A stretch of DNA of 64,000 nucleotides from Variovorax sp. TBS-050B (GTDB taxonomy: Bacteria; Pseudomonadota; Gammaproteobacteria; Burkholderiales; Burkholderiaceae_C): contig NZ_JARXYR010000002.1 in the NCBI RefSeq assembly GCF_029893635.1, forward strand, positions 967,001 to 1,031,000, written 5' to 3'. Below the pieces are notes generated by a model that was not told the DNA's origin, did no database searches, and saw nothing but the letters and a program-made list of their open reading frames with translations. The position numbers and the translations under genes were made by a program. Positions 223-21,636 of the stretch are shown here, piece by piece (the stretch's first letter is position 1; every line of letters begins with the position of its first letter).

Positions 223-3200
223 ATGGCCAAATTCTTCATCGACCGCCCCATCTTCGCGTGGGTGGTCGCACTGTTCATCCTCGTGCTCGGCGGCGTGTCC
301 ATCACGCAGCTGCCGATCGCGCAGTACCCGCCGGTGGCGCCGCCCGCCATCGTGATCAACGTCGCCTACCCCGGCGCCTCGGCCCAGACGCTCGAGGACA
401 GCGTGCTGTCCGTCATCGAGCGCGAGATGAACGGCTCGCCCGGCCTGATCTACATGGAGTCGGTGGCGCAGGCCGACGGTACCGGTGCGATCACGATCAG
501 CTTCGAGCCCGGCACCAACGAAGACCTCGCGCAGGTCGACGTGCAGAACCGGCTCTCGCGCGCCACGCCGCGCCTGCCGGCGGCGGTGACGCAGCAGGGC
601 GTGCGCGTGGACAAGTCGCGCGACAACTTCCTGCTGTTCACGATGCTCTCGTCGGACAACCCGGACTTCGACCCGGTGGCGCTGGGCGACTATGCCGCGC
701 GCAACATCGTGCCCGAGCTGCAGCGCATCGCGGGCGTGGGCCAGGTGCAGCTGTTCGGCTCCGAGAACGCGATGCGCATCTGGATCGACCCGGCCAAGCT
801 GCAGGGCTTCAACCTGTCGCCCACCGACGTGACGGCCGCCATCCGCGCGCAGAACGCGCAGGTGGCCTCGGGCACGATCGGCGACCTGCCGAACGTGCCG
901 GGCCAGGCGATCGCCGCCACCGTGACGGTGAACGGCCAGCTCTCCAGCGTCGAGCAGTTCCGCGAGATCGTGCTGCGTGCCAAACACCGACGGCTCCACC
1001 GTGCGCCTGAAGGACGTGGCGCGCGTGGAGCTCGGCGGCCAGAGCTACGCCACCTCGGCGCGGCTGAACGGCGTGCCCGCGGTGGGCATCGGCGTGCAGC
1101 CCACGCCCACCGGCAACGCGCTGAAGTCGGCCAAGGCGATCCGCGAGAAGATGAGCGAGCTCGAGCGCTTCTTCCCCAAGGGCGTGAAGTGGGACATCCC
1201 CTACGACAGCTCGCGCTTCGTGCAGCTCTCGATCACCGAAGTGGTGAAGACGCTGATCGAGGCGGTGGTGCTGGTGTTCCTCGTGATGTTCCTGTTCCTG
1301 CAGAACTGGCGCTACACGATCATCCCGACCATCGTGGTGCCGATCGCGCTGCTCGGCACCTTCGCCACCCTGCTCGCGCTGGGCTTCTCGATCAACGTGC
1401 TGACGATGTTCGGCATGGTGCTGGTGATCGGCATCGTGGTGGACGACGCGATCGTGGTGGTGGAGAACGTCGAACGCATCATGAGCGAGGAAGGCCTGCC
1501 GCCGCTGGAGGCCACGCGCAAGGCGATGCAGCAGATCTCGGGCGCCATCATCGGCGTGACCGTGGTGCTGGTCTCGGTGTTCGTGCCGCTGGCCTTCTTC
1601 GCGGGCTCGACCGGCAACATCTACCGCCAGTTCTCGGCGGTGATGGTGGCCTCGATCAGCTTCTCGGCCTTCATGGCGCTGTCGCTCACGCCGGCGCTTT
1701 GCGCCACGCTGCTCAAGCCGGTGGAAGCGGGCCATCACCATGAGAAGCGCGGCTTCTTCGGCTGGTTCAACCGCGGCTTCTCGCGCACCGCCAAGGGCTA
1801 CGAGGGCATCGTCGCGCGCATCCTGCGCCGCGCCGCGCGCTACCTCGTGATCTACGCGGCCATCATCGGTGCGGTGGTGTACTTCTACACGCACCTGCCG
1901 AGCTCGTTCCTGCCGCAGGAAGACCAGGGCAACATCATCGTGAACGTGCAATTGCCGCCTGGCGCGACGCAGGAGCGCTCGCTGTCGGTGATGCAGCAGG
2001 TCGAGGGCTTCATCATGAAGCAGCCCGAAGTGCAGAGCATCGTGAGCGTGATGGGCTTCAGCTTCTCGGGCCAGGGCCAGAACGCGGGCCTCGCCTTCGT
2101 GACGCTGAAGGACTGGGAAGAGCGCAAGGACCCGGCCAATTCGGCCAGCGCGCTCGCCGGCCGTGCCTTCGGTGCGCTCTCGGGCATCCGCGACGCCTTC
2201 ATCTATCCGCTGAGCCCGCCGCCGATCCCCGAGCTGGGCAACGCCAGCGGCTTCAGCTTCCGGCTGCAGGACCGCTCGGGCGCAGGCCACGAGGCGCTGA
2301 TCAACGCACGCAACCAGCTGCTGGGCATGGCGTCGCAGAGCAAGGTGCTGTCGCAGGTCCGCCCCGACGGCCTGGAAGACGCGCCGCAGCTCGAGATCGA
2401 CATCGACCGCGACAAGGCCAATGCGCTCGGCGTGAGCTTCGACGCGATCAATGCCGCACTCTCGACCGCGCTCGGCTCGAGCTACGTCAACGACTTCCCG
2501 AACCGCGGCCGCCTGCAGCGCGTGGTGGTGCAGGCCGATGCGCCCGCGCGCATGCAGCCCGACGACCTGCTCCGGCTCAACGCGACCAACACGCAGGGCC
2601 AGCCGGTGCCGCTCGGCGCGTTCGCGACCACCAAGTGGGTCAACGGCGCGACGCAGACGGTGCGCTACAACGGCTACCCCGCGATCCGCATCAGCGGCGA
2701 CGCGGCGGCCGGCTACAGCACGGGCGCCGCGATGGCCGAGATGGAGAAGCTCGCCGCGCAGCTGCCGCAGGGCTTCGGCTTCGAATGGACGGGCCAGTCG
2801 CGCGAGGAAAAGCTCGCGGGCTCGCAGGCCATGATCCTCTACGGCTTCGCGATCCTGGCGGTGTTCCTGTGCCTGGCCGCGCTGTACGAGAGCTGGTCGA
2901 TCCCGCTGTCGGTGATCCTGGTGGTGCCGCTGGGCGTGCTCGGCGTGCTGGTGGCGACGCTGCTGCGCTCGTATTCGAACGACGTGTACTTCCAGGTGGG
3001 CCTGATAACCATCATCGGCCTGTCGGCGAAGAACGCGATCCTGATCATCGAGTTCGCCAAGGACCTGCAGGCGCAGGGCCGCGGCGTGGTCGAGGCTGCG
3101 CTCGCCGCGGCGCACCTGCGGTTCCGGCCGATCATCATGACTTCGCTGGCCTTCGGCCTCGGCGTGGTGCCGCTGTTCACCGCCTCGGGCGCGGGCTCGG

Positions 3201-3391
3201 CGAGCCAGCGCGCCATCGGTACCGGCGTGCTCGGCGGCATGGTCACGGGCACGGCGCTCGCGGTGATCTTCGTGCCGGTGTTCTTCGTGGTGGTGCGCAG
3301 CCTGTTCAAGGGCAGCGCGCGCCAGCACGAGGCCGACAAGCGGCATGCGCAAGCCGCCGGCATCACGGAGGAAAAACATGACCCCCAATAA
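223..3391 (+). CDS. RND (HAE1) multidrug efflux inner-membrane pump, interrupted by a single-base frameshift
   Basis: Proton-driven exporter of the AcrB/MexB/AmrB family. The start MAKFFIDRPIFAWV is the typical first transmembrane helix. The proton-relay helix carries GIVVDDAIVVVENV and the TM10 region carries GLSAKNAILIIEFAKD. The reading frame shifts at an AAA run (982-984): reading GCC-AAC-ACC instead of GCC-AAA-CAC restores LRANTDGSTVRLKDVARVEL, a normal porter-domain sequence, and gives about 1055 residues, the usual length. It is therefore a full-length gene with one extra A, either a sequencing error or a very recent lesion. The end overlaps the outer-membrane gene by 14 bases, so the three genes form one operon. 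Confidence 0.9.
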
Positions 3392-7800: not shown

Positions 7801-7817
7801 TTGAACCAAATGGTCAA
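7801..7817 (+). promoter_or_regulatory. RutR-like operator upstream of rutA
   Basis: TTGAACCAAATGGTCAA contains TGAACCA-AA-TGGTCAA, 12 of 14 defined positions of the E. coli RutR consensus TTGACCA-NN-TGGTCAA. It lies 53 bases upstream of the -24 element, between the NtrC-like site and the IHF site, where a bound repressor could disturb enhancer contact. Confidence 0.72.
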
Positions 7818-7869: not shown

Positions 7870-7885
7870 TGGCACGGCGCATGCA
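7870..7885 (+). promoter_or_regulatory. Sigma-54 (-24/-12) promoter of rutA
   Basis: TGGCACGGCGCATGCA fits TGGCACG-N4-TTGCA with one mismatch, and GG and GC have the obligatory ten-base spacing. Transcription would start near 7896, leaving a 25-base leader that holds AGGAG at 7908-7912. In E. coli the rut operon is also NtrC/sigma-54 controlled. Confidence 0.7.
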
Positions 7886-7920: not shown

Positions 7921-9033
<1,113 letters not shown>

Positions 9034-9051
9034 GCGGAAAGGAGCACCACA

Positions 9052-9831
9052 ATGACCACGCCCGCACGCAACACCACCCTCCGCTCGAACACGCCCGTCG
9101 GCGCACCGCGCGCGCCCGGCGCGCCCGCGCCGCTGATCCTGCCCGCGCGGCCCGAACCGCTGGCGCTGCACGCGAGCGACTCGGCGCTCATCGTGGTCGA
9201 CATGCAGAACGCCTATGCCTCCCTCGGCGGGTATGTCGATTCGGCCGGCTTCGACATCTCCGGCGCGCAGGGCACCATCGCCGGCATCGTGCGCGCCATC
9301 GCGGCGGCGCGCGCGGCAGGCATGCTGGTCGTGTTCCTGCAGAACGGCTGGGACGCGGGCTACGTCGAGGCCGGCGGCCCCGGCTCGCCCAACTGGCACA
9401 AGTCGAACGCGCTCAAGACCATGCGCGCGCGACCCGAGCTGCAGGGCAAGTTCCTCGCCAGGGGCGGCTGGGACTACGAACTCATCGAGGAGATGAAGCC
9501 ACAGCCCGGCGACATCGTGGTGCCGAAGACGCGCTACAGCGGCTTCTTCAACAGCACCCTCGACAGCACGCTGCGCGCGCGCGGCATCCGCCACCTGGTG
9601 TTCACCGGCATCGCCACCAACGTGTGCGTCGAATCGACGCTGCGCGACGCCTTCCACCTCGAGTACTTCGCCGTGATGCTGGAGGACGCCACGCACGAGC
9701 TCGGCGGACCGGCGATCCAGAAGGCCTCGGTCTACAACGTGGAGACCTTCTTCGGATGGGTCTCCACGGTGGACCACTTCTGCAGCATCTTCGCGCCAGC
9801 GCAGGCGACTGCCGAACCAGTCGTCGCCTGA
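9052..9831 (+). CDS. rutB: Ureidoacrylate/peroxyureidoacrylate amidohydrolase RutB
   Basis: Isochorismatase-fold cysteine hydrolase that splits peroxyureidoacrylate to carbamate and peroxyaminoacrylate. The catalytic triad is visible as Asp50 (IVVDMQNAY), Lys159 ([10 protein letters not shown]) and Cys192 ([10 protein letters not shown]). The core follows E. coli RutB almost without gaps, but the N terminus is about 25 residues longer and Pro/Ala-rich. AAGGAG lies seven bases before the start. It is the second gene of the rut operon, 18 bases after rutA. Confidence 0.97.
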
Positions 9832-9863
9832 TCCATTTTTCTTCCCGAAGGAGCTCCGTTTCC

Positions 9864-10256
9864 ATGCCCAAGCAAGCCATCATCCCGCCCGGCACCGGCG
9901 TGCCGCTCGCCCCCTACGTTCCCGGCACGCTCGCCGACGGCGTGCTCTACGTCTCGGGCACGCTGCCCTTCGACAAGGACAACAACGTGGTGCACGCGGG
10001 CGACGCCGCCGCGCAGGCGCGCCACGTGCTCACCACCATCCAGGGCGTGGTCGAGGCCGCGGGCGGCACCATGGACGACGTGACCTTCAACCAGATCATG
10101 CTCAAGGACTGGGCCGACTACGCGAAGATCAACGCGGTGTACGCCGAGTTCTTCCCCGGCACCAAGCCCGCGCGCTACTGCATCCAGTGCGGCCTGGTGA
10201 AGCCCGACGCGCTGGTCGAGATCGCCTCGATCGCCCACGTCGGCAGGAAGGCCTGA
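9864..10256 (+). CDS. rutC: 3-aminoacrylate deaminase RutC
   Basis: A 130-residue member of the YjgF/RidA/UK114 family. In the Rut pathway it removes reactive aminoacrylate-type intermediates. Conserved features are the N-terminal [18 protein letters not shown], the strand [13 protein letters not shown] and the C-terminal [25 protein letters not shown] end (here [11 protein letters not shown]), with the active-site Arg in PARYC. GAAGGAG precedes the ATG. Placement between rutB and rutD separates it from generic RidA paralogues. Confidence 0.96.
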
Positions 10257-10261
10257 GCTTC

Positions 10262-11068
10262 ATGGGCGCGCTGCACTACGAGGTTCACGGGCCGCGCGAT
10301 GCAGCGGTCACGGTGCTGCTGTCCTCGGGCCTCGGCGGCTCGGCCGGCTTCTGGCAGCCGCAACTCGGCGCGCTGATTGCCGCCGGCTACCGCGTCGTCG
10401 CCTACGACCAGCGCGGCACCGGCCGCAGCCCCGCCGCGCTGCCCGAGGTCTATGCCATCGCGGACATGGCCCGGGACGTGATCGAGATCCTCGACGCGAC
10501 GAACACCGCGCGGTGCCACTTCGCGGGCCATGCGCTCGGCGGCCTCGTCGGCCTGCAGCTCGCGCTCGACGCGCCTTCGCGCATCGCGAGCCTCGTGCTC
10601 GTCAACGCGTGGTCGAGGCCCAACCCGCATTCGGCGCGCTGCTTCGATGCAAGGCTCGCGCTGCTCGGCGCCTGCGGTGCGCGCGCGTACGTCGAGGCGC
10701 AGCCGATCTTCCTCTACCCCGCGGCCTGGGCCGCCGAGAACGCGCAGCGCGTGGCCGACGAAGTCGACCACGCCTTCGCGCACTTCCCGGGCGAGGCCAA
10801 CATGCGCGCCCGCATCGCCGCGCTGCGCGCCTTCGACATCGATGCCCGTCTCGCCGACATCGCCGCGCCCGCCTTGATCGCCGCGGCCAGGGACGACACG
10901 CTGGTGCCCTGGACCTGCTCCCAGCGCCTCGCCGACGGCCTGCGCGACGTCACGCTCGACATCGTGCCGCACGGCGGCCATGCCCACAGCGTGACCGAGG
11001 CCGACGCCTTCAACCGCAGCCTGCTCGACTTTCTCTCGCGGGTCAGTGCACCCGCCGTTCCAGCATGA
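10262..11068 (+). CDS. rutD: Putative carbamate hydrolase / aminoacrylate hydrolase RutD
   Basis: A 268-residue alpha/beta hydrolase with the same landmarks as E. coli Rut[28 protein letters not shown], the nucleophile region [18 protein letters not shown] and [12 protein letters not shown]. As in E. coli RutD, the usual Ser of the nucleophile elbow is replaced (GHALGG has Ala). The family is thought to speed a late step of the pathway, the breakdown of carbamate or aminoacrylate. It starts five bases after rutC, and its stop overlaps the rutE start (ATGA). Confidence 0.94.
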
Positions 11069-11661
11069 CCACCACCCACACCCTCGACGACGCCGCGCTG
11101 TCGCTGCTCTTCACCGGCGCGCGCAGCCACAACGGCTGGACCGACGAGCCCGTCACCGACGCGCAGCTCGCGCAGGTCTACGCGCTCGCAAGCCTCGGCC
11201 CCACCTCGGCCAACTGCTCGCCCGCGCGCTTCGTCTTCGTGCGCACGCCCGAAGGCAAGCAGCGCCTCGCGCCGGCGCTCTCCAAGGGCAACCTCGACAA
11301 GACCATGGCCGCGCCCGTCACCGTCATCGCCGCGTGGGACCGCAGGTTCTACGACAGGCTGCCCACGCTGTTCCCGCATGCCGATGCGCGCAGCTGGTTC
11401 ACCGGCAGCCCCGAGGCCGCGCACGAGACGGCCTTCCGAAACGCCAGCCTGCAGGCGGGCTACCTGCTGCTGGCGGCGCGCGCGGTCGGACTCGACGCGG
11501 GCCCGATGTCGGGCTTCGACAAGGCGAAGGTCGACGCGGCCTTCTTCGAGGGCACCGACTGGACCGTCAACTTCCTCATCAACCTCGGCCACGGCGACCC
11601 ATCGAAGCTGTTCGGCCGGCTGCCGCGGCTGGCCTTCGACGAGGCCTGCCGGCTCGCCTGA
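11065..11661 (+). CDS. rutE: Malonic semialdehyde reductase RutE
   Basis: A 198-residue nitroreductase-family flavoprotein that reduces malonic semialdehyde to 3-hydroxypropionate, the last Rut step. Conserved blocks include [38 protein letters not shown] and [11 protein letters not shown]. Start and rutD stop share ATGA, so translation is coupled. Confidence 0.95.
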
Positions 11662-11676
11662 AGGCGCCGTTACGAC

Positions 11677-12228
11677 ATGCCGAACGCCATGGCCTCCCAC
11701 GCTCCCGCCTCACCGAACCCCGCCGTGATGCCGCCGGGCCTGCAGAAGGCCGACTTCCGCAATGCGATGGCGCGGCTGGGCGCGGCGGTGAACATCATCA
11801 CCACCGACGGCCCCGCAGGCCGCGCGGGCTTCACCGCCTCGGCCGTGTGCAGCGTGACCGACGAGCCGCCGACGCTGCTGGTGTGCCTCAACCGCTCGGC
11901 CTCGGTGTACCCGGCGTTCAAGGCCAACGGCGTGCTGTGCGTCAACGTGCTGGCCGCAGGGCACCAGTCGCTGTCCGCCCTCTTCGGCGGCAAGACGCCG
12001 ATGGACGAGCGCTTCGCCGCGGCCCGCTGGAGCCGCAACACCACCGGCTCGCCGGTGCTCGACGACGCGGCCGTGTCCTTCGACTGCCGGGTGGTGCATG
12101 CGACCAGCGCGGGCACGCACGACGTGCTGTTCTGCGAGGCCGTCGCCATTGCCATCGGTGGTGCGGCGCAGGGGCTCATCTACTTCGATCGCCGGTATCA
12201 CGAGATCGCTGCGCCACCGCAGCACTGA
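11677..12228 (+). CDS. rutF: NADH:flavin reductase RutF
   Basis: A 183-residue flavin-reductase-like protein that supplies reduced FMN to RutA. The family pattern is clear: [53 protein letters not shown], then [10 protein letters not shown] and the C-terminal [12 protein letters not shown]. The first 22 residues are poorly conserved, so the start could be Met18 instead. It is the last gene of the operon. In E. coli rutG (uracil permease) follows, but here the next feature is an intergenic repeat and then rutR on the other strand. Confidence 0.93.
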
Positions 12229-12382: not shown

Positions 12383-13087
12383 TCAGCGCGGCACGATGCC
12401 CTGCAGCACGATGCGCTGGATGTTCTCCACCGTGCGCTCGAAGAATCCCTCGTCTTCCAGCGTGTGCCCCGCGAGCGCCTGCACCTGCACGCCGAAGTCC
12501 GCGTAGTGCTGCGTCACGGCCCAGAGCGCGAAGACGAGGTGGTGCGGATCGACCGGCGCCAGCTTGCCCGCATCGATCCAGGCGCGGATCACTTCCGACT
12601 TCTTCTCCACCAGGGTGCGCAGTTCGCGGTCGAGTTCGTCGCGCAGCAGCGGCGCGCCCTGGATCATCTCCAGGCAGAAGAGCCGCGACGCATCGGGCCG
12701 GTCGCGCGAGATCACCAGCTTGCGGCGGATGTAGTCGCCGATGGCCTGGGCCGGGTCCTGCTCGGCGCTGAAGCCGCGCAGCGGTTCGAGCCACAGCGCG
12801 AGCAGGTCGCGCAGCACGCTGACGTAGAGCTCTTCCTTGTTCGCGAAGTAGTAGAGCAGGTTGCTCTTCGACACGTCGGCGCGCGCAGCCACCTGGTCGA
12901 TGGAGGTGCCGTGCAGGCCGAAGCGCGAGAACAGCCCCAGCGCCGCGCCGAGGATCGCGCTGCGCTTGTCCTCGATCTGGCGCAGCCGGCGGCTCACCGC
13001 GGAGGCGCTGCGCACCGCCGGCTTCGCGCGCTTGCGCACGGGGCTTTGCTTGCTGGCGCTCGCGGCCAGTGCTTTGGTCTTCGGCAT
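12383..13087 (-). CDS. rutR: TetR-family pyrimidine utilisation regulator RutR
   Basis: A 234-residue repressor. After a basic N-terminal extension of about 30 residues, the TetR helix-turn-helix reads FSRFGLHGTSIDQVAARADVSKSNLLYYFANKEELY. The C-terminal ligand domain follows E. coli RutR closely (SRLFCLEMIQGAPLLRDEL, AGKLAPVDPHHLVFALWA, QHYADFGVQV, TVENIQRIVLQGIVPR). RutR senses uracil or thymine and releases DNA when it is bound. The start at 13087 is preceded by AGGGA, whereas longer upstream starts would run through the regulatory region. It faces rutF and is divergent from the dioxygenase operon, and RutR-like operators stand before both operons. Confidence 0.93.
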   Translation of the reverse strand: MPKTKALAASASKQSPVRKRAKPAVRSASAVSRRLRQIEDKRSAILGAALGLFSRFGLHGTSIDQVAARADVSKSNLLYYFANKEELYVSVLRDLLALWLEPLRGFSAEQDPAQAIGDYIRRKLVISRDRPDASRLFCLEMIQGAPLLRDELDRELRTLVEKKSEVIRAWIDAGKLAPVDPHHLVFALWAVTQHYADFGVQVQALAGHTLEDEGFFERTVENIQRIVLQGIVPR

Positions 13088-13233: not shown

Positions 13234-13249
13234 TTGTCCATTTGGTCCA
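13234..13249 (+). promoter_or_regulatory. RutR-like operator upstream of the dioxygenase operon
   Basis: TTGTCCA-TT-TGGTCCA matches 12 of 14 positions of the E. coli RutR consensus. Read on the minus strand and one base longer, it is TTGGACCAAATGGACAA, which shares TTGNACCAAATGGNCAA with the rutA box. It ends two bases before the -24 element, so a bound repressor would clash with sigma-54 polymerase. Confidence 0.72.
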
Positions 13250-13251
13250 AC

Positions 13252-13267
13252 TGGCACAGACGTTGCA
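13252..13267 (+). promoter_or_regulatory. Sigma-54 (-24/-12) promoter of the dioxygenase-transporter operon
   Basis: TGGCACAGACGTTGCA is a near-perfect -24/-12 element (TGGCAC, GG-to-GC spacing of ten bases, TTGCA). Start of transcription is expected near 13278, giving a 24-base leader with GAGGA at 13290-13294 before the dioxygenase ATG. Confidence 0.78.
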
Positions 13268-13301
13268 TGGCGAAAGGCATGCCAAGCACGAGGAACCTGC
13301 C

Positions 13302-14303
13302 ATGACCCTGCTTTCCGTCCCCATCATCGATCTCGCGCCCTACTTCGCCGGCACCGCCGAAGGCAAGGCGGAGGTCGCGAAGAAAGTCGACGAGGCCTGC
13401 CGCAGCATCGGCTTCCTGGTCATCACCAACCACGGCATCTCGCCCGAGCTGATCTCGCGCGTGTCCTCCCTCTCGCGCAGGTTCTTCGACATGCCGCTGG
13501 CCGAGAAGCGCAAGGTCGATCGTCCGCGCGAGGACGCGGTGCGCGGCTACAGCGCGGTGGGCGAGGAAGGCCTCTCCTACAGCCTCGAGGAAGCGGCGCC
13601 GGGCGACCTGAAGGAGTCGTTCTCCATCGGCCCCTCGAACGTGCCGGACGACGACTACCACCGCGGCCCGGCCGCCGGCCCGCACTTCGAGCCCAACAGC
13701 TGGCCCCCCATCGAGGGCTTCAAAGAGGCCTACGAGCAGTACTTCGAGGCGATGAGCGATCTCTCGCGCTCGCTGATGCGCGTCTTCGCGCTCGGCCTCT
13801 CGCTGCCCGAGACCTTCTTCGACGACAAGATCGACAAGCACATCAGCATGTTCCGCGTGCTGAGCTACCCGCCGCAGCGCGAGCAGCCGCTGCCCGGCCA
13901 GCTGCGCGCGGGCGCGCACAGCGACTACGGCAGCCTCACCATCGTGCTGCCCGACGACAAGGGCCTGCAGGTGTTCAACAAGGCCGGCCAGTGGGTGGAC
14001 GTGCCGCAGGTCGAGGGCGGCCTGGTGGTCAACATCGCCGACCTCATGATGCAGTGGACCAACGACCAGTGGGTGTCCACGCTGCACCGCGTGATCAACC
14101 CGCCCTTCGAGGTCGCGAGCACCAACCGCCGGCAGTCGCTGGTGTTCTTCCACCAGCCCAACTACGACGCGATGGTCGAGTGCCTGCCGAGCTGCCTCGC
14201 GCCCGGCGAGCAGCCAAAGTACGCGCCCATCTCCTCGGGCGACCACCTCACCTCCAAGTTCGTCAAGCAGACGACCTTCGGCGGCACCAAGGTCGCGGCC
14301 TGA
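13302..14303 (+). CDS. Fe(II)/2-oxoglutarate dioxygenase, isopenicillin N synthase family
   Basis: A 333-residue double-stranded beta-helix oxygenase. Iron ligands are His206 and Asp208 (GAHSDYGSLTIV) and His262 (STLHRVINP). The 2-oxoglutarate carboxylate is bound by Arg277 and Ser279 (NRRQSLVFF). The N-terminal IPIIDL-like start (here VPIIDLAPYF) and GFLVITNHGIS are diagnostic of the family. The same family includes the fungal thymine 7-hydroxylase, and this gene lies next to rutR behind a RutR-like box and a sigma-54 promoter. Oxidation of a pyrimidine such as thymine is therefore a reasonable inference, but the substrate is not visible in the sequence. First gene of a seven-gene operon. 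Confidence 0.9.
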   Translation: MTLLSVPIIDLAPYFAGTAEGKAEVAKKVDEACRSIGFLVITNHGISPELISRVSSLSRRFFDMPLAEKRKVDRPREDAVRGYSAVGEEGLSYSLEEAAPGDLKESFSIGPSNVPDDDYHRGPAAGPHFEPNSWPPIEGFKEAYEQYFEAMSDLSRSLMRVFALGLSLPETFFDDKIDKHISMFRVLSYPPQREQPLPGQLRAGAHSDYGSLTIVLPDDKGLQVFNKAGQWVDVPQVEGGLVVNIADLMMQWTNDQWVSTLHRVINPPFEVASTNRRQSLVFFHQPNYDAMVECLPSCLAPGEQPKYAPISSGDHLTSKFVKQTTFGGTKVAA

Positions 14304-14326
14304 TTCCTCGGAGGCGCCCGGATCAC

Positions 14327-14713
14327 ATGGCCCACCTGTCCTACGTCAACGTCTTCGCGAAGGACGTGGTCGCGCTCAGCGGCTTCTACCAGCGCGTGTT
14401 CGGCTTCCAGGAGATCGAGGCGATCCGCTCGCCCATCTTCCGCGGGCTGGACACCGGCAAATCGAGCCTCGGCTTCAACGCGCTCGATGCCTACGAGCTG
14501 CTGCACCTGGGCGAATTCGCCGACACGCGCGGCGTGAAGTTCCTGCTGAACATCGACGTCGACAGCCAGGCCGAGGTCGACCGCATGGTGCCGGTCGCGC
14601 TCGAGGCCGGCGCCACGCTCGTGAAGCCGCCCTATGTGACCTACTACGACTGGTACCAGTCGGTGCTGCTCGACCCCGAGGGCAACGTGTTCCGCATCAA
14701 TTTCATGATGTAG
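14327..14713 (+). CDS. VOC (glyoxalase/bleomycin resistance) family protein
   Basis: A 128-residue single-domain VOC protein made of two beta-alpha-beta-beta-beta modules: AHLSYVNVFAKDVVALSGFY then FGFQEIEAIR, and FLLNIDVDSQAEVDRM then SVLLDPEGNVFRINF. Candidate metal ligands are a His in the first strand, a Glu in ELLHLGEF and a Glu/Asp near DPEGN. VOC enzymes include ring-cleavage dioxygenases, isomerases and thiol transferases, and the reaction here is unknown. It follows the dioxygenase by 23 bases and may act on its product. Confidence 0.8.
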   Translation: MAHLSYVNVFAKDVVALSGFYQRVFGFQEIEAIRSPIFRGLDTGKSSLGFNALDAYELLHLGEFADTRGVKFLLNIDVDSQAEVDRMVPVALEAGATLVKPPYVTYYDWYQSVLLDPEGNVFRINFMM

Positions 14714-14775
14714 CGGCGCGGCCTTTCATTTTTCTTTTCTCCCTCGTCCTCACGCTCCTCACGAAAGGTTGCTCC

Positions 14776-15880
14776 ATGCCGCGCATCTCCTCCCACGGCC
14801 CGGCCCTCGGGCTGGCACTGACGCTCGCAGCCTGCGGCGCCTCGTTCTCGCTGCCGGCCGCCGCCGACGGCTTCACGCTGAAGGACAAGCCGAAGATCGC
14901 GATGCTCTACTTCGGCCCCAAGAACGACGGCGGCTGGACGCAGGCCTTCGACGAAGCCCGCGTGAAGATCGAGAAGGAGATCGGGCCAGAAGATCCAGTT
15001 CGTGGAGAACGTGCCCGAGGACGCCTCGGCCATCAAGCCCGCGGCGGAGAAGTTCATCCAGCGCGGCGCCAACATCGTGATCGGCACCGCCTTCGGCTAT
15101 TCCGACAGCTTCAAGGACCTGGCTGCCAAGTACCCCGGCGTGGCCTTCCTCAACGGCTCGGGCACCACCAACGGCAGCAACCTCGAATCCTTCTACGGCC
15201 GCACCTACGAGAGCCAGTACCTCTGCGGCATGGCCGCCGGTGCCGCCTCGAAGACCGGCAAGCTCGGCTTCGTCGCGGCCAACCCCTTCGGCGTGGTGAA
15301 CTGGACCATCAACGCCTTCGCGCTCGGCGCGCAGAAGATGAACCCCAACGCCACCGTCAACGTGATCTACACCGGCGCGTGGAACGACCCGGTGAAGGAG
15401 CGCGCGGCCGCCGCCGCGCTCATCGACCAGGGCGCCGACGTGATCGGCCAGCACGTGGACAGCCCCACGCCGCAGATCGTCGCGCAGGAGCGCGGCGTGT
15501 ACGGCACCGGCCACCACCGCGACCTGCGCCAGTTCGCGCCCAAGGCCACGCTGTGTTCCTCCGTGTGGGTGTGGGACCGCTTCCTCGCGCCCGAACTCAA
15601 GAAGATCATGGCCGGCGGCTGGAAGCCCGCGCAATACGGCGCCTTCATCGAGATGAAGGACGGCGGCACCGACATCGCCGGCTTCGGCCCGGCCGTGCCC
15701 AAGGACAAGGCAGCGCTCATCACCGCCGAGCGCGACGCGATCATGAAGGGCAAGCAGATCTACGCCGGTCCGCTCGCCGACCGCGACGGCAAGGAGCGCG
15801 TGGCCAAGGGCGCGGTGCTCTCGGACGCCGAGCTCTGGAAGATGGACTGGTTCGTCAAGGGCGTGGTCACGCAGAAGTAG
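14776..15880 (+). CDS. BMP-family ABC transporter substrate-binding protein, interrupted by a single-base frameshift
   Basis: Periplasmic binding protein of the Bmp/PnrA type (nucleoside or nucleobase uptake). It begins with a signal peptide ending near LPAAADG. The frame breaks at a GGG run (14983-14985). Removing one G turns IGPEDPVRGER into IGQKIQFVENVPEDASAIKP, joins both halves and gives about 367 residues, a normal length. The second half has the family blocks GTAFGYSDSFKDLAAKYPGVAFLN and AAGAASKTGKLGFVAANPFGVV. Given the intact downstream genes, an extra G from sequencing is the simplest reading. It is the likely ligand receptor of the following ABC proteins. Confidence 0.88.
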
Positions 15881-15905
15881 GCCCCGGGACAAGCCAAGGC
15901 CGCAC

Positions 15906-17432
15906 ATGCCCAACGCGCTCGAACTCACCGGCATCCGCAAGACCTTCGACGGCTTCGCGGCACTGACCGACGCCCACTTCGCGGCGCGCTGGGGCGAGGT
16001 GCACGCGCTGCTCGGGGAAAACGGCGCGGGCAAGTCCTCGCTGATGAACATCGCGGCCGGCCTCTACGCGCCCGAGGCCGGCCAGCTGCTGGTGGACGAC
16101 AACGCGGTGCGCTTCGCCGGGCCGCGCGACGCGGCGAAGCACCGCATCGGCATGGTCCACCAGCATTTCAAGCTGGTGCGGCCGTTCACGGTGGCGCAGA
16201 ACATCCTGCTCACCGCGCCGCCGCCTCCGGAGTTCCAGAGCCATGGCGAGCGGTTGCGCGAGATCACGCGCGACATCCGCAACAAGGCGGCGGAGCTGGG
16301 CTTCGACATCGATCCGGCGAAGCGCGTCGATGCGCTGTCGATCGCCGAGCAGCAGCGCGTGGAGATCCTCAAGGTGCTGCTGGCCGGCGCGCGCATCCTG
16401 ATCCTCGACGAGCCCACGGCCGTGCTGACCGACCAGGAGGCCGCGCGCCTGCTGCAGACGGTGCAGGGCCTGGCACGCCAGGGCGCGGCCGTGGTGCTGG
16501 TCACGCACAAGATGGCCGACGTGAAGACCTACGCCGACCGCGTGACCGTCATGCGCGGCGGCCGCACCGTGGCCACGCTGAAGCCCGGCGATGCATCGGT
16601 GGCCGAGCTGGTGAAGCTCACGGTGGGCGAGTCGATCGCGGCGCAGGGCTTCGAGCCCTCGGCGGCGCCGCGCGGGCCGGTGCGCCTTTCGGTGCGCGGC
16701 CTGCGCACGCCCGCCTCGCCCGAAGGCCGCCGCGTGCTCGACGGCGTGGACCTCGACCTGCATGCGGGCGAGATCTACGGCCTGGCCGGCGTGGGCGGCA
16801 ACGGCCAGGGCGAGCTGGCGGGCGCGATCATGGGCCTGCCGGGCGAGGCCACCGAAGGCGAGATCCGGCTCGAAGGCCATGGCGACCTCAAGACCATGCC
16901 CGCCGCGGTGCGCCGGGGCATCGGCATCGCCGCCATTCCGGCCGACCGCTACGGGCTCGCGCTCGCGGGCGGCCTCTCGGTGGCCGAGAACTACGCCATC
17001 GGCCGCGTGCACACCGGCCGCTACGGACCCGTGTGGCGCCTGCGCCGCAGCCGCATCCAGAGCGACACGCAGGAAGCGGTGCGCGCCTTCGACGTGCAGG
17101 GCGTGCGCTCGGTCGCGCAGAAGGCGGCGCTGCTCTCGGGCGGCAACGCGCAGAAGCTGGTGCTGGCGCGCGAATTCGGCAAGTCGCCCACGCTGGTGCT
17201 CGCGCACAGCCCGAGCCGCGGGCTCGACGTGCGCGCCAGCGCCGAGGTGCATGCGAGGCTGCGCGCCGCACGCGACGGCGGTGCGGCGGTGCTGCTCATC
17301 AGCGAGGACCTCGACGAGGTGCTGCAGCTCGCCGACCGCATCGGCGTGATGACGCGCGGGCGCATCGCCGGCGAGTTCGCGCAGCCCGCGGACCGGCAGG
17401 CCATCGGACAGGCGATGGTGGACCATGGCTGA
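15906..17432 (+). CDS. ABC transporter ATPase with two nucleotide-binding domains (BMP/nucleoside type)
   Basis: A 508-residue tandem ATPase of the YufO/NupO group. The N-terminal half has Walker A GENGAGKSS, Q-loop HQHFKL and Walker B ILILDEPTAVLT. Its signature region (LSIAEQQRVEILK) is the usual variant of this group. The C-terminal half is degenerate, as is normal: Walker A is replaced by GVGGNGQGEL, the signature is LLSGGNAQKLVLARE, and Walker B ends in LVLAHSPSRGLDV instead of D-E. It powers import through the two permeases that follow and overlaps the first by eight bases. Confidence 0.92.
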   Translation: MPNALELTGIRKTFDGFAALTDAHFAARWGEVHALLGENGAGKSSLMNIAAGLYAPEAGQLLVDDNAVRFAGPRDAAKHRIGMVHQHFKLVRPFTVAQNILLTAPPPPEFQSHGERLREITRDIRNKAAELGFDIDPAKRVDALSIAEQQRVEILKVLLAGARILILDEPTAVLTDQEAARLLQTVQGLARQGAAVVLVTHKMADVKTYADRVTVMRGGRTVATLKPGDASVAELVKLTVGESIAAQGFEPSAAPRGPVRLSVRGLRTPASPEGRRVLDGVDLDLHAGEIYGLAGVGGNGQGELAGAIMGLPGEATEGEIRLEGHGDLKTMPAAVRRGIGIAAIPADRYGLALAGGLSVAENYAIGRVHTGRYGPVWRLRRSRIQSDTQEAVRAFDVQGVRSVAQKAALLSGGNAQKLVLAREFGKSPTLVLAHSPSRGLDVRASAEVHARLRAARDGGAAVLLISEDLDEVLQLADRIGVMTRGRIAGEFAQPADRQAIGQAMVDHG

Positions 17433-18621
17433 CGCCTCCCTCATGGCCGACGGGGCAGCGCGCGCTTCCACATCCGCCACGCCGCCCGCCAAGGCATCTG
17501 CTGCGGCCGTCGCGCACGAGGCGCCGCGCACGGCGCAGCCCATGCAGCCGCTGGCCCGCCGTCGCTACGCGCTCGAGATCCGCCAGCACATGCCGTGGCG
17601 CTGGCAGGCGCTGATCCTCGCGGCGGCGCTGCTCGTGGGCTTCGCCATCTCCGCGGCGATCCTCGTGGCCGCGGGCGTGCCCGCCGACGAACTCGCCAAC
17701 GAGTTCGTGATGCAGACCTTCCTCGACGGCCAGAACTTCCGCGCCGTGCTGTTCCAGGCCGCGCCGATGATCCTCGTGGGCCTCGCGGGCGCCATCGCCT
17801 TCCGCGCGCGCTTCTGGAACCTGGGGCTCGAAGGCCAGATGATCTGGGGCGCCATCGGCGCGACCACCGTCTCGATGTGGCAGATCGGGCCCGAGAACCT
17901 GCGCCTGCCGCTGATGTTCATCGCGGCCATCGGCTGCGGACTGCTGTGGGTGCTGGGGCCCGTGTGGCTCAAGCTCAAGCTCGGCGTGAACGAGATCATC
18001 TCGACGCTGATGCTCAACTACATGGCGGCCAACTTCCTGCTGCACCTGGTCTACGGCAGCTGGAAGGACCCGAAGGACAACTTCCCCTACTCGCCGCAGT
18101 TCCGTGCCTTCGAGCGGCTGCCCGAGCTCGGCGCGGGCATCGGCAGCTCGATCCTGCTGGCGGGCATCGTCGCGCTGCTGGCGTGGTGGCTCGCGAGCGT
18201 GAGCCGCATGGGCCTGTACCTGCGTTTCGTCGATGCGAACCCGCGCGTGGCGCACGCCAGCGGCGTGCCGGTGCGACGCACCATCTACGGCGCGGTGCTG
18301 CTCTCTGGCGCGATGGCCGGGCTCGCGGGCTTCGCGGTGGTCGCGGGCCAGGAAGGCCGGCTCACGCAGGCCTTCTACCAGGGCTACGGCTTCTCGGGCA
18401 TCCTCATCGCCTTCCTCGCGCGCAACAACCCGCTCGCGGCCACGGTGGTGGCGCTGCTGGTGGCCGCGCTCTTCGTCACCGGCCGCAGCCTGCAGGTGTT
18501 CTACCAGGTGCCGTTCTCGATGGTGCAGCTGATCCAGGCGGTGATCGTGGTGTGCGTGGCGTCGAGCGACTTCTTCATCCGCCACCGGCTGCGCCGCGTG
18601 GGCGGGGAGGCCGTGCAATGA
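17425..18621 (+). CDS. ABC transporter permease 1 (BMP/nucleoside type)
   Basis: A 398-residue inner-membrane protein of the YufP/NupP type. An N-terminal cytoplasmic stretch of about 55 residues, rich in Ala and Thr, precedes eight to nine hydrophobic helices. Signatures are FRARFWNLGLEGQMIWGAIGAT, GVNEIISTLMLNYMA and GFSGILIAFLARNNPLA, all typical of the branched-chain/ribose permease superfamily. The start overlaps the ATPase gene and the stop overlaps the next start (ATGA). An internal start at Met40 (MQPLARRRY) is also possible, because the first 40 residues look non-essential. Confidence 0.9.
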   Translation: MADASLMADGAARASTSATPPAKASAAAVAHEAPRTAQPMQPLARRRYALEIRQHMPWRWQALILAAALLVGFAISAAILVAAGVPADELANEFVMQTFLDGQNFRAVLFQAAPMILVGLAGAIAFRARFWNLGLEGQMIWGAIGATTVSMWQIGPENLRLPLMFIAAIGCGLLWVLGPVWLKLKLGVNEIISTLMLNYMAANFLLHLVYGSWKDPKDNFPYSPQFRAFERLPELGAGIGSSILLAGIVALLAWWLASVSRMGLYLRFVDANPRVAHASGVPVRRTIYGAVLLSGAMAGLAGFAVVAGQEGRLTQAFYQGYGFSGILIAFLARNNPLAATVVALLVAALFVTGRSLQVFYQVPFSMVQLIQAVIVVCVASSDFFIRHRLRRVGGEAVQ

Positions 18622-19550
18622 ACGGCGGCATCGTCCTCAACTGGCTCGCGAGCACGCCGGACTTCGCGGTGCCCTATGCGCTCGCCGCGCTCGGTCTCAT
18701 CATCTGCGAGCGCGCGGGCGTGCTCGCGCTCGGCGCCGAGGGGCTGATGCTGGTCGGCGCGCTGGCCGGCATCGGCGCACAGATCGTGATCGGCCAGCCG
18801 GCCGTGTCGCTGGTGCTCGCGATGCTGGCGGCCAGCGTGGTGTCGGTGCTGTTCGCGGTGATGGTGATCTGGCTGCGCGTGAACCAGGTGATCGCCGGGC
18901 TCGCGCTGGTCTTCTTCTGCCAGGGGCTCACCGCGCTGGTGGGCTCGATGGCCGAGTGGACCAACCATGCGACCGAAGGCATCGGCACGATGGGCCTGTG
19001 GCCGCTGTCGCTGCTGCCGGGCGTGGGCCGCCTCTTCGAGCAGAACGCGATGGTGTGGCTCACGCTGCCGATCTTCGGCGCGGTGGCGTGGTTCTTCGCG
19101 CGCAGCGCGGCCGGCCTGCGGCTGCGCGCGGTGGGCGAGAACCCGCAGGCGGCCGACGCGGCGGGCCTTCGCGTGACCGCATGGCGCTTCGCCGCGGTGC
19201 TCGCGGGCTCGGCGCTGGTGGGGCTGGCGGGCGCCTACATCTCGGTGGTCAGCACCAAGCTGTGGATCGCGGGCATGACCGGCGGTCGCGGCTGGATCGC
19301 CGTGGGCCTCGTGATCTTCGCGCGCTGGTCGCCGTGGAAGGCGCTCGCCGGGGCGCTGCTCTTCGGCTGCATCGAGGCGCTGATTCCCCAGCTGGCCGCC
19401 GCCGGCGTGCAGCTGCCGCAGTACTTCGTGCTGATGACGCCGTATGCGGTGACGCTGGGCGTGATGGTGTGGGTCGCGCTCTCGCGGCGCGGCGCCGATG
19501 AAGAGCCCGGCGCGCTGGGCCAACCCTACGTGCGGGAAGAACGCCGATGA
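18618..19550 (+). CDS. ABC transporter permease 2 (BMP/nucleoside type)
   Basis: A 310-residue inner-membrane protein of the YufQ/NupQ type, shorter than permease 1 as usual. Characteristic stretches are CERAGVLALGAEGLMLVGA, WLRVNQVIAGLALVFFCQGLTAL and MTGGRGWIAVGLVIFARWSP. Both ends overlap neighbours by four bases, so the stoichiometry of the two permeases is probably set by coupled translation. With the BMP receptor and the ATPase it forms a complete importer. Confidence 0.92.
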   Translation: MNGGIVLNWLASTPDFAVPYALAALGLIICERAGVLALGAEGLMLVGALAGIGAQIVIGQPAVSLVLAMLAASVVSVLFAVMVIWLRVNQVIAGLALVFFCQGLTALVGSMAEWTNHATEGIGTMGLWPLSLLPGVGRLFEQNAMVWLTLPIFGAVAWFFARSAAGLRLRAVGENPQAADAAGLRVTAWRFAAVLAGSALVGLAGAYISVVSTKLWIAGMTGGRGWIAVGLVIFARWSPWKALAGALLFGCIEALIPQLAAAGVQLPQYFVLMTPYAVTLGVMVWVALSRRGADEEPGALGQPYVREERR

Positions 19551-20221
19551 AGGCCTGGGTCTACGACGAGGAGCGCGAGCTCGATGCGGCGACCTTCGCC
19601 GACTACCTCGATCCCGCCACCACCGCGGTCGTCTCCATCGACATGCACCGCGGCCACCTCGACGACAGCCCCGACTGCCCCTGCCCCGCGCCGCGTGCGC
19701 GCGACGTGGTGGCGCCCATCGACGGCTTCCACGACGCGGTGCGTGCGCTGGGCGTGCGCATCGTGCACGTCAGGTCGGTGCTGCGGCCCGGCGGGGTGGA
19801 CGACATCCACGGCATTCCGTCGGCATGGCGGCGCACCTTTCCGCTGCACGTGGGCGAGATCCCGAACGCCGACGCGCATGCCATCGAAGGCTCGAAGTGG
19901 ACCGAGTGGGTCACGCGCGTGGAACCCGGCGACATGCGCGTGGACGGCAAGCGCCGGCTCTCGGCCTTCTACCCGACCGACCTCGACTTCCTGCTGCGCA
20001 ACCAGCGCATCGAGACCGTGGTGCTCGACGGCGGCTTCACCGACTGCTGCGTGCTCAACACCGCCTTCGACGCCAGCAACCGCAACTACCGCGTGATCGT
20101 GCTGCGCGACCTGGTGCGCGGCACCGACGCGCACCTCGAGGGCGCGGCGCTGGCGATGGTGTCGCTGCACCTGGGGCTGGTGATGGATTCGCAGGAACTG
20201 CTGCGGCTGTGGCGCGGCTGA
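19547..20221 (+). CDS. Isochorismatase-family cysteine hydrolase
   Basis: A 224-residue hydrolase related in fold to RutB but clearly a different subfamily. The triad is Asp32 (VVSIDMHRGHL), Lys135 (GKRRLSAFY) and Cys168 (GGFTDCCVLNT), the latter next to a second Cys167. An unusual CPCP segment lies at residues 44-47. Family members split amides such as biuret, ureidoacrylate, nicotinamide or N-carbamoyl compounds, so action on a urea- or amide-containing product of the imported compound is likely but unproven. Last gene of the sigma-54 operon, coupled to permease 2 by ATGA. Confidence 0.85.
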   Translation: MKAWVYDEERELDAATFADYLDPATTAVVSIDMHRGHLDDSPDCPCPAPRARDVVAPIDGFHDAVRALGVRIVHVRSVLRPGGVDDIHGIPSAWRRTFPLHVGEIPNADAHAIEGSKWTEWVTRVEPGDMRVDGKRRLSAFYPTDLDFLLRNQRIETVVLDGGFTDCCVLNTAFDASNRNYRVIVLRDLVRGTDAHLEGAALAMVSLHLGLVMDSQELLRLWRG

Positions 20222-20230
20222 GGCTGAGCT

Positions 20231-20989
20231 TCAGCCCGGCACGCCGAGCCAGCGCGCGGCCACGGCCTGCATCTCGCCCTGGGCCGCTTCCCACACCAGC
20301 TCCGGCGCCGCCACGTGCACGCCGGGCGGCGCGATGCGCAGCGCCAGCTCGACCAGCTCGGCCACCTTCGAAGCGCGCACCGGCTGCTCGCTGCTCGGCA
20401 CCATGTAGCGCAGGGTCGAGAGCATCCAGTCGGCCAGCCGCTCGGCGGGCCCGCGAAGCCGCGCGTTCGCCGGCCGGCGCGCCGAGCGCACGAGGAGCAC
20501 GCGCTCGAAGCCGCAGGCCACCACCGCATGTTCGTCGAGGCTCGCGAGGCCGCGCTTGAGCGCCTCGGGCAGCCGCCCCTGGTCGTGCGGCTGCACGATC
20601 GCGAGCGTGTGGACGCCGCAGCTGCGCAGCCAGCGCGCGAGCGCCGGCAGTTCGCCGGGCTGCGGCGCCCAGAAGGCGCGTTCGCGGTCGTGGTAGAGCC
20701 GCGGCGGATCGAAGGCCACCACCGCCGCCTCGGCCGAGGTCGGCGGCCACTCGGCGATCGGCGCCTCGGGCGCGAGGCAGCTCTCGACGCCGCGCATGCC
20801 GTCGCGCACCGGTTCGCGCGCGAGCAGCCGCACGTGCGCGAAGCGGCGGTTGCCGGCGAACAGCCGCACGAGTTCCTGCCCGAGCGCGCCGGTCGCGCCC
20901 GCGACCAGCACCGTGCCCGCGAGCGCCGCCTTCGTGGGTGGCTGGACGCGGTTCGCTGCCTGCAGGGCATGGAGAGGATCGAGGGACAT
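20231..20989 (-). CDS. NAD(P)-binding Rossmann-fold protein (SDR-like)
   Basis: A 252-residue protein with an N-terminal dinucleotide motif VLVAGATGALGQELVRLF after a 27-residue lead. It is related to atypical short-chain dehydrogenases (NmrA or YbjT type). There is no clear YxxxK catalytic pair, so it may be a non-enzymatic sensor or bind NADP only. It converges on the hydrolase gene with nine bases between stops and is divergent from lemA. Confidence 0.75.
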   Translation of the reverse strand: MSLDPLHALQAANRVQPPTKAALAGTVLVAGATGALGQELVRLFAGNRRFAHVRLLAREPVRDGMRGVESCLAPEAPIAEWPPTSAEAAVVAFDPPRLYHDRERAFWAPQPGELPALARWLRSCGVHTLAIVQPHDQGRLPEALKRGLASLDEHAVVACGFERVLLVRSARRPANARLRGPAERLADWMLSTLRYMVPSSEQPVRASKVAELVELALRIAPPGVHVAAPELVWEAAQGEMQAVAARWLGVPG

Positions 20990-21033
20990 GGCGGTCTATG
21001 CTAACTTCCGGCACTTCTGCGGAGGTAATGCAA

Positions 21034-21636
21034 ATGACGATCCTGAAACGCTGGTTCCTGATTCTTGCCGCCGTGCTCTCGCTCAGCGGCTGCGGCTACA
21101 ACCAGTTCCAGTCGCTCGACGAGGCCAGCAAGTCGGCCTGGAGCGAGGTCCTCAACCAGTACCAGCGGCGCGCCGACCTGGTGCCCAACATCGTCGCCAC
21201 CGTCAAGGGCGAAGCGGCCTTCGAGCAGGACACGCTCACCAAGGTGATCGAGGCGCGCGCGAAGGCGACCTCGATCCAGGTCACGCCCGAGACGCTCAAC
21301 AACCCGGAAGCCTTCAACAAGTTCCAGCAGGCGCAGGGCGAGCTCGGCTCGGCGCTGTCGCGGCTGATGGTGGTGGCGGAGCGCTATCCCGAACTCAAGG
21401 CCAACCAGGCCTTCCGCGACCTGCGCGTGACGCTCGAAGGCACCGAGAACCGCATCACCGTGGCGCGCAACCGCTACATCCAGACGGTGCAGGAGTACAA
21501 CGTGCTCGCACGCAGCTTCCCGACCAACCTGACGGCGAAGATCTTCGGCTACGACCCCAAGCCCAACTTCTCGGTGCAGAACGAGGCGCAGATCTCGACC
21601 CCGCCGACGGTCGACTTCAGCGCGCCGAAGAAGTAG
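21034..21636 (+). CDS. lemA: LemA family lipoprotein
   Basis: A 200-residue LemA protein: lipoprotein signal peptide with lipobox LSGC at about residues 17-20, then the four-helix core with YNQFQSLDEASKSAWSEVLNQYQRRADLVPN, NPEAFNKFQQAQGELGSAL and ENRITVARNRYIQTVQEYN. The ATG at 21034 is preferred over that at 21028 because GGAGGT (21021-21026) is seven bases from the former and only one from the latter. The function of LemA is not firmly known. As in many bacteria, it is followed by TPM-domain genes. Confidence 0.93.
   Translation: MTILKRWFLILAAVLSLSGCGYNQFQSLDEASKSAWSEVLNQYQRRADLVPNIVATVKGEAAFEQDTLTKVIEARAKATSIQVTPETLNNPEAFNKFQQAQGELGSALSRLMVVAERYPELKANQAFRDLRVTLEGTENRITVARNRYIQTVQEYNVLARSFPTNLTAKIFGYDPKPNFSVQNEAQISTPPTVDFSAPKK

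Follow-up and report, generated by a model that had tools for sequence, protein, structure and literature searches.

A second operon with a RutR-like operator and a sigma-54-type promoter beside the rut genes of Variovorax, encoding a thymine-7-hydroxylase-like dioxygenase and a BMP-family importer

Gene content and promoters of the locus

We analyzed 64,000 nucleotides of the Variovorax sp. TBS-050B genome (contig NZ_JARXYR010000002.1, positions 967,001 to 1,031,000; hereafter the window), in which the rut genes of uracil catabolism are accompanied by a second operon encoding a 2-oxoglutarate (2OG)/Fe(II) dioxygenase and an importer. A preliminary description had read this operon as a pyrimidine uptake and pre-oxidation module. 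The operon lies on the plus strand and begins with the dioxygenase gene (13302..14303; DIOX_N and 2OG-FeII_Oxy), whose product has a predicted fold like that of thymine-7-hydroxylase (T7H) and is 99% identical to its counterpart in V. paradoxus 110B. It is followed by genes for a VOC protein (14327..14713; Glyoxalase, PF00903), a BMP-family periplasmic receptor (about 14776..15880; Bmp, PF02608, in the open reading frame (ORF) 15002-15880), an ATPase with two ATP-binding cassette (ABC) domains (15906..17432), permease 1 (17425..18621) and permease 2 (18618..19550), both BPD_transp_2, and an isochorismatase-fold cysteine hydrolase with the predicted triad D32/K135/C168 (19547..20221; Isochorismatase, PF00857). 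Gene families were assigned with Pfam, which recovered every gene of the preliminary description, and equivalog cut-offs were those of the NCBIfam models. The ATPase is indeed a tandem one, a single protein carrying two ABC stretches, and is closest to the NCBIfam model ABC_ATP_B6 (370.8 bits, under the cut-off of 670).

As described, the operon diverges from rutR, which is on the minus strand (12383..13087; TetR_C_3, E 2e-56; solved RutR chains, E 7e-77). The RutR product scores 290.1 bits against NF011584, over the cut-off of 230, and 311.2 bits against TIGR03613, under the cut-off of 368. Farther upstream lie rutA-rutF (7921..12228, plus strand; the start is taken from the beginning of the RutA model match), with RutA (716.5 bits, cut-off 498.3) and RutB (402.8 bits, cut-off 377.95) assigned by model score and RutC-F by position and tblastn synteny; RutD is also an alpha/beta hydrolase by Pfam.

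The dioxygenase gene is preceded by a RutR-like operator (13234..13249, plus strand) with two mismatches to TTGACCAnnTGGTCAA, which we take to be the RutR box consensus, and by a -24/-12 (sigma-54) element (13252..13267, plus strand) with one mismatch to TGGCACGN4TTGCW, the sigma-54 consensus assumed for scoring. The rut operon carries a similar pair, a box upstream of rutA (7802..7817, plus strand, two mismatches) and a -24/-12 element (7870..7885, plus strand, one mismatch), and for this reason the dioxygenase operon is correctly called a second RutR/sigma-54 operon. RutR-like sites with at most three mismatches number five in the window against 0.70 expected, and the two with two mismatches are those of the rutA and dioxygenase promoters. 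A looser pattern, TTGNCCANNTGGNCNA, gave seven rows at six places in the whole genome, the box at 13234 included, and the reversed control gave two rows. On its own, the sigma-54 pattern shows no enrichment in the window (six matches with at most two mismatches, 13.7 expected); the support for this element is its conserved position.

We compared the 330 bases upstream of the dioxygenase gene in 37 regions, the window and 36 of the 80 loci considered below, with 1850 plain base shuffles as controls. A sigma-54 match with at most one mismatch is present in 28 of the 37 regions (2/1850 shuffles), and a RutR box with at most two mismatches in 24 (3/1850 shuffles); the regions are kin to one another, and these counts are therefore not independent events. 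The box-to--24 distance, start to start, is 18 or 20 bases in 22 of the 24 box-bearing regions, the other two being L045 and L046. Thus, both the near-perfect -24/-12 element and the RutR-like palindrome reported in the preliminary description were recovered, and both are conserved. Among the 22 regions with this fixed spacing are two whose loci lack any rut gene for 10 kb around, those of Pararobbsia (L044) and P. oryzihabitans KNF2016 (L062). In L046, whose genome has no RutA match, another palindrome, CTGTCCGACCGGTCAG, stands directly before the -24 element in place of the RutR box.

The claim that all seven genes are coupled holds for the downstream part of the operon: the ATPase and permease 1, the two permeases, and permease 2 and the hydrolase are the only overlapping pairs, whereas gaps of 23, 62 and 25 bases separate the first four genes. 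Moreover, the receptor reading frame is interrupted by a shift between about 14986 and 15002 in the window and is whole in relatives, for example L001. Because an RND (AcrB-type) gene elsewhere in the window (223-3391) is likewise split between two frames (profile positions 1-247 in ORF 223-1743 and 247-1021 in ORF 977-3391), assembly error and decay are equally likely, and the two split frames hint at base-calling errors in the assembly. Scans of the window yielded no RNA family (Rfam, gathering threshold) and no tRNA.

Linkage to rut genes and to uracil pathways

The preliminary description had proposed a search for co-occurrence of the operon with rutA and rutR in related genomes. Among the best 80 of the 323 dioxygenase matches in genome_contigs, rutR is nearby in 72 loci and rutA in 66. 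For 67 loci, picked via the dioxygenase gene, 9 kb or more was available on either side of that gene; in these we found rutR in 61 and rutA in 58, along with the VOC and BMP genes in all 67, the ATPase in 66, each of the permeases in 65 and an orthologue of the hydrolase in 52, with identity thresholds for neighboring genes that we set ourselves. Variovorax accounts for 35 of the 80 loci, where the linkage is mere synteny, and the rearranged layouts are therefore the stronger evidence. There are at least five of them, across beta- and gammaproteobacteria (arrowheads give direction; dio, dioxygenase operon): rutA-F> <rutR dio> in Comamonadaceae, <rutR rutA-D,F> dio> in P. oryzihabitans, <rutF-A rutR> dio> in Halopseudomonas, Marinobacter and Oceanobacter, dio> <rutR rutA> in Alkalilimnicola, and, in a metagenome-assembled genome (MAG) named Pantoea (L045), rut flanked by the dioxygenase on one side and the importer on the other. 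In Paracidovorax wautersii (L050), rutR is the only rut gene remaining beside the operon.

The downstream end of the operon varies. In Halopseudomonas, a YdfG-like reductase (277 bits, under the cut-off of 411) occupies the place of the hydrolase. In L111 (L111:5-11635), the operon adjoins genes that by eye resemble an NCS1 gene of cytosine-permease type and a PucR-type regulator gene, and the hydrolase, which at 109 bits stays below the RutB cut-off, is RutB-like but of another subgroup. In 17 of the 80 loci (for example, L001:16939-20152), which belong to Variovorax, Pseudacidovorax, Xenophilus and one Comamonadaceae record, the operon is followed by a second 2OG dioxygenase that is 31-33% identical to the first; after it, genes resembling PotD/PotA/PotB (spermidine-type ABC) were noted by eye, and in L047 a gene related to the second dioxygenase is inside the operon. 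The second dioxygenase and the Pot-like genes were considered as parts of the module and rejected; in the window they were not seen after the hydrolase, the next ORFs there being 20231-20989 and 20938-21636.

Linkage extends to the presence of uracil pathways in the genome. Among 399 genomes of the order of the window (taken to be Burkholderiales), RutA exceeds its cut-off in two, the genome of the window and G171, and the same two genomes, but no others, have a dioxygenase of at least 84% identity; G350, of the same genus as the window, has neither. Twelve genomes, out of 14 loci without a nearby rutA, were checked for RutA, and a match was found in nine, over the cut-off in eight, and none in L046, L050 and L057. 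PreA, searched in 18 genomes bearing the operon, is present in four, namely the three without RutA and that of L044, which has both pathways; in all, 17 of the 18 bearers have RutA or PreA. By comparison, PreA is present in 24 of the 399 genomes of the order. The reductive loci of all four PreA bearers include PreT, PreA, an NCS1 permease, dihydropyrimidinase and an amidohydrolase (tblastn). Thus, the reductive uracil pathway (PreTA, dihydropyrimidinase) is present in the three bearers that lack RutA, but none of its genes was seen within 10 kb of the dioxygenase operon of the bearers, and its regulator paralogue differs: near the reductive operons L099, L100, L101 and L102 lies a RutR paralogue, 37-39% identical to RutR of the window, which is perhaps the regulator of the reductive route.

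The window resembles E. coli Rut in its RutR orthologue, rutA-F, sigma-54-type promoter and RutR palindrome, and differs in the extra, second RutR/sigma-54 operon; to our knowledge, E. coli has no dioxygenase/BMP operon. Unlike E. coli, which has RutG, no RutG-type gene adjoins rut here: Xan_ur_permease (PF00860) matches exist in the genome, none of them in the window. A reconstruction of RutR regulons across 13 proteobacterial groups covered 68 genomes and gave 743 target genes, or 10.9 per genome (PMC5343134). The word dioxygenase is absent from the main text of that paper; since 10.9 targets per genome exceed rutA-G, RegPrecise may already list the dioxygenase operon as a RutR target. The accessible text of a study of P. 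aeruginosa nucleobase transporters names no BMP importer (PMC11633122). We found no functional account of the operon in the literature searched, the RegPrecise tables and most subscription papers aside.

The dioxygenase, the receptor and the accessory proteins

The preliminary description had placed the oxygenase in a family that contains the fungal thymine 7-hydroxylase. In a phmmer search against solved structures, thymine dioxygenase 5c3p ranks first (E 3e-51) and the ancestral ethylene-forming enzyme 9ovh next (2e-49). When an AlphaFold2 model (predicted local distance difference test, pLDDT, 84.5; predicted template modelling score, pTM, 0.87; residues 90-101 and 318-333 below a pLDDT of 50) was searched with Foldseek, T7H chains took up the top 11 rows, followed by 9ovh. 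The enzyme of the window thus shares with T7H of Neurospora crassa (5c3p-5c3s) the predicted fold, the metal/2OG ligands and the equivalents of Arg190, Tyr194, Tyr217 and Phe292, all of which are invariant in 37 homologues, and differs from it in being encoded in an operon with an importer. In databases, the clade goes only by the names 'isopenicillin N synthase family' or 'oxygenase domain-containing'.

Other homologues occur in diverse settings. The 68% identical one (L105:1-9136) lies among genes for Rieske alpha and beta subunits and an alpha/beta hydrolase, with RidA and amidohydrolase genes noted by eye; this cluster is possibly another N-heterocycle pathway that uses the same uptake-oxidation cassette. 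The 48% identical one (L107:3254-10947) is accompanied by a second dioxygenase, VOC, xanthine-dehydrogenase-type genes and a xanthine permease, as in a purine-side cousin of the module, and has Y, N and V at T7H positions 87, 122 and 190. Homologues of 42-54% identity (L106, L112, L113, L115-L118, L120) were found, by eye, in mixed contexts with no rut genes.

The receptor shares the BMP family and an aromatic sandwich with AtzT, which binds guanine and 2-hydroxyatrazine for the AtzSTUVW importer of Pseudomonas sp. ADP. The importer belongs to a sigma-54 operon induced on nitrogen starvation, and AtzT holds guanine through Ser97, Glu165, Asn218 and Asn220, between Tyr45 and Trp194 (PMC6834077). 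In the 77 operon receptors recovered from the 80 loci, W occupies positions 45 and 194 without exception, so that the sandwich is kept with Tyr45 replaced by Trp, whereas Ser97 is replaced by A, Glu165 by V (65 receptors) or Q (12), Asn218 by H and Asn220 by D; Thr139 and Asn169 are also changed. The adenine-modelled structure 3s99 and a receptor away from rut genes (L119) keep the Ser and Glu, with the same H and D as the operon receptors. The loss of the Ser97 and Glu165 contacts fits a shift away from purines, and the new ligand would be a pyrimidine.

The VOC protein is related to 2rbb (E 1.6e-59), and residues Y103, Y106, Y107, W109 and Y110, among others, are conserved in an alignment of 22 rows. 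In the same alignment, the positions that we take to be the usual metal ligands of the family are not His or Glu, and binding is therefore a likelier role for the protein than metal-dependent catalysis.

The hydrolase, announced as a new amidohydrolase, shares the isochorismatase fold and the predicted Asp-Lys-Cys triad with RutB and BiuH: K135 and C168 are invariant in 13 rows and D32 in the 12 rows that cover this position, and the triad positions align to those of biuret-hydrolase chains. However, it is far under both equivalog cut-offs (RutB, 45.1 of 377.95 bits; BiuH, 65.6 of 370), as well as that of nicotinamidase, and its subgroup has an invariant C44-P-C46 motif. It is not a core component, given the presence of its orthologue in 52 of the 67 full-flank loci.

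Proposed function and alternatives

The conserved linkage, operator and promoter, together with the predicted fold and the clade-specific pockets, lead us to infer a substrate class, a reaction and an order of steps. Specifically, we consider it fairly probable that the operon is an accessory module, controlled by RutR and sigma-54, for import of a pyrimidine-type base that is oxidized before uracil catabolism. Nitrogen limitation would switch on the operon through sigma-54 and a presumed NtrC-type activator, and RutR, which in E. coli is released by a pyrimidine ligand, would leave the operator on binding such a ligand, allowing transcription. The BMP receptor and the ABC importer would then take up a pyrimidine-like base bearing more than uracil does, and the dioxygenase would oxidize it. 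The product could enter the local uracil pathway, RutA-F here and, in those relatives that lack RutA, PreTA/dihydropyrimidinase; the VOC protein probably binds the substrate or the product, and the cysteine hydrolase, or the YdfG-like reductase in some relatives, may handle a downstream fragment. Nitrogen control agrees with the phenotype of the ntrC mutant of Pseudomonas stutzeri A1501, which is impaired on thymine, uracil and cytosine, in a report whose accessible part does not mention the operon (PMC8443478). The leading substrate candidate is thymine or another 5- or N-substituted uracil, thymine being plausible and the most obvious natural one. The fuller version, in which importer and dioxygenase salvage thymine or a modified pyrimidine as a nitrogen source for Rut or the reductive pathway under RutR/sigma-54 control, is somewhat less probable than not. 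Thus, of the initial suggestion, the attachment to Rut, the control by RutR and a role in pyrimidine use are favored by the linkage in several layouts, the conserved boxes and the occurrence of RutA or PreA in bearers, whereas thymine as the substrate and its conversion to uracil are plausible at most, given the loss of the polar contacts of T7H, the lack of a decarboxylase in the operon and the counter-case of L105.

Several observations count against import and oxidation of a pyrimidine ahead of uracil catabolism. At the level of genomes, G097 (92% complete), which carries the 68% identical dioxygenase of L105, has no RutA or PreA match, and the genome of L062, the exception among the 18 bearers, has a partial RutA match and no PreA. 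PreA is present in five of the 12 genomes of the family of the window, so that its presence in two Paracidovorax genomes means little by itself, and two of the three bearers without RutA belong to one genus. No RutR box with at most two mismatches was found in 13 of the 37 upstream regions, those of Paracidovorax cattleyae (L057) and twelve others from Halopseudomonas, P. abyssi, P. neustonica, a Pseudomonadaceae MAG, Stutzerimonas (with a Pseudomonas MAG), Oceanobacter, Marinobacter and Alkalilimnicola; some of these carry the sigma-54 match only. As for the dioxygenase, it is 35% identical to T7H and 40% to 9ovh, which also has the conserved active-site residues, and these were accordingly rejected as proof of thymine activity. 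T7H contacts thymine through Asn87, Glu122 and Asn294 (PMC4787775); the sequence alignment has V80, S108 and Q285 at these positions, invariant in 37/37, where the Glu122 column is uncertain (S108 with MAFFT, H120, not invariant, with phmmer) and has Glu in neither case. Furthermore, L105 has the same pocket in another catabolic cluster, and L107 clusters with xanthine-dehydrogenase-type genes. With regard to a thymine route in particular, Pfam identified no decarboxylase in the operon, isoorotate decarboxylase not having been searched genome-wide; we take the Pfam family of the latter to be too broad to decide. Finally, AtzT binds uracil and thymine weakly, with dissociation constants of 1600 uM and 620 uM, respectively (PMC6834077), and the default ligand of the receptor family is therefore a purine. 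Because the pocket residues of the dioxygenase are invariant yet differ from those of T7H, the clade seems to have one conserved substrate, with polar recognition unlike that of T7H.

A special case of the module is that the dioxygenase is a functional thymine-7-hydroxylase that acts on the 5-methyl group and converts imported thymine to 5-hydroxymethyl-, formyl- and carboxyuracil, the last being decarboxylated elsewhere to uracil or used directly by RutA/PreTA. Sequence and predicted fold both place T7H closest among solved structures, the equivalents of R190, Y194, Y217 and F292 and the metal/2OG ligands are invariant, and the operon is linked to pyrimidine genes; but the kept residues are common to other family members, the counterparts of Asn87 and Asn294 are Val and Gln throughout, Glu122 is lost in either alignment and the operon provides no decarboxylase, which makes this route rather unlikely.

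Import of a purine or another N-heterocycle, in which case the Rut link would reflect shared control by nitrogen limitation and not one pathway, is less probable still. The ligands of AtzT and 3s99, the xanthine-dehydrogenase-linked L107, and the occurrence of the dioxygenase in other gene clusters, in L105 (68%) and in L119 (42%, beside a BMP receptor), are in its favor. However, the Ser97 and Glu165 contacts are changed in all 77 operon receptors and kept in the non-rut L119, the pocket of the xanthine-dehydrogenase-linked homologue is different, and 24 of 37 sequences carry a RutR-like box ahead of the operon. Purine import thus appears weakened by the pockets of both receptor and dioxygenase.

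It is quite improbable, within the pyrimidine reading, that the dioxygenase acts on a modified pyrimidine by stripping off an N-methyl group, or one like it, to yield uracil in a single step. One product would then fit both RutA and PreTA with the genes at hand, V80 is a hydrophobic substitute for the T7H Asn that binds O2 of thymine, and an N-substituted uracil as the substrate would account for the missing decarboxylase; the N-methyl substrate itself, however, is conjectural. Equally improbable is that the importer alone matters, as a replacement for the RutG permease in uracil uptake, with the dioxygenase acting on a side product: the BMP importer is the one adjoining rut in a window without a PF00860 permease, but VOC and BMP accompany the dioxygenase in 67/67 full-flank loci and the genome has other PF00860 permeases.

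Thymine-7-hydroxylase chemistry is known from fungi and has a parallel in the TET enzymes (PMC4787775). If the proposed function is correct, the operon would provide a bacterial T7H counterpart tied to Rut, a substrate for an oxygenase clade that now has generic database names only, and a substrate for a BMP importer whose pocket has departed from that of the purine binders known so far. Such a counterpart would explain how modified pyrimidines serve soil bacteria as a nitrogen source, and the module, being small, is easy to test.

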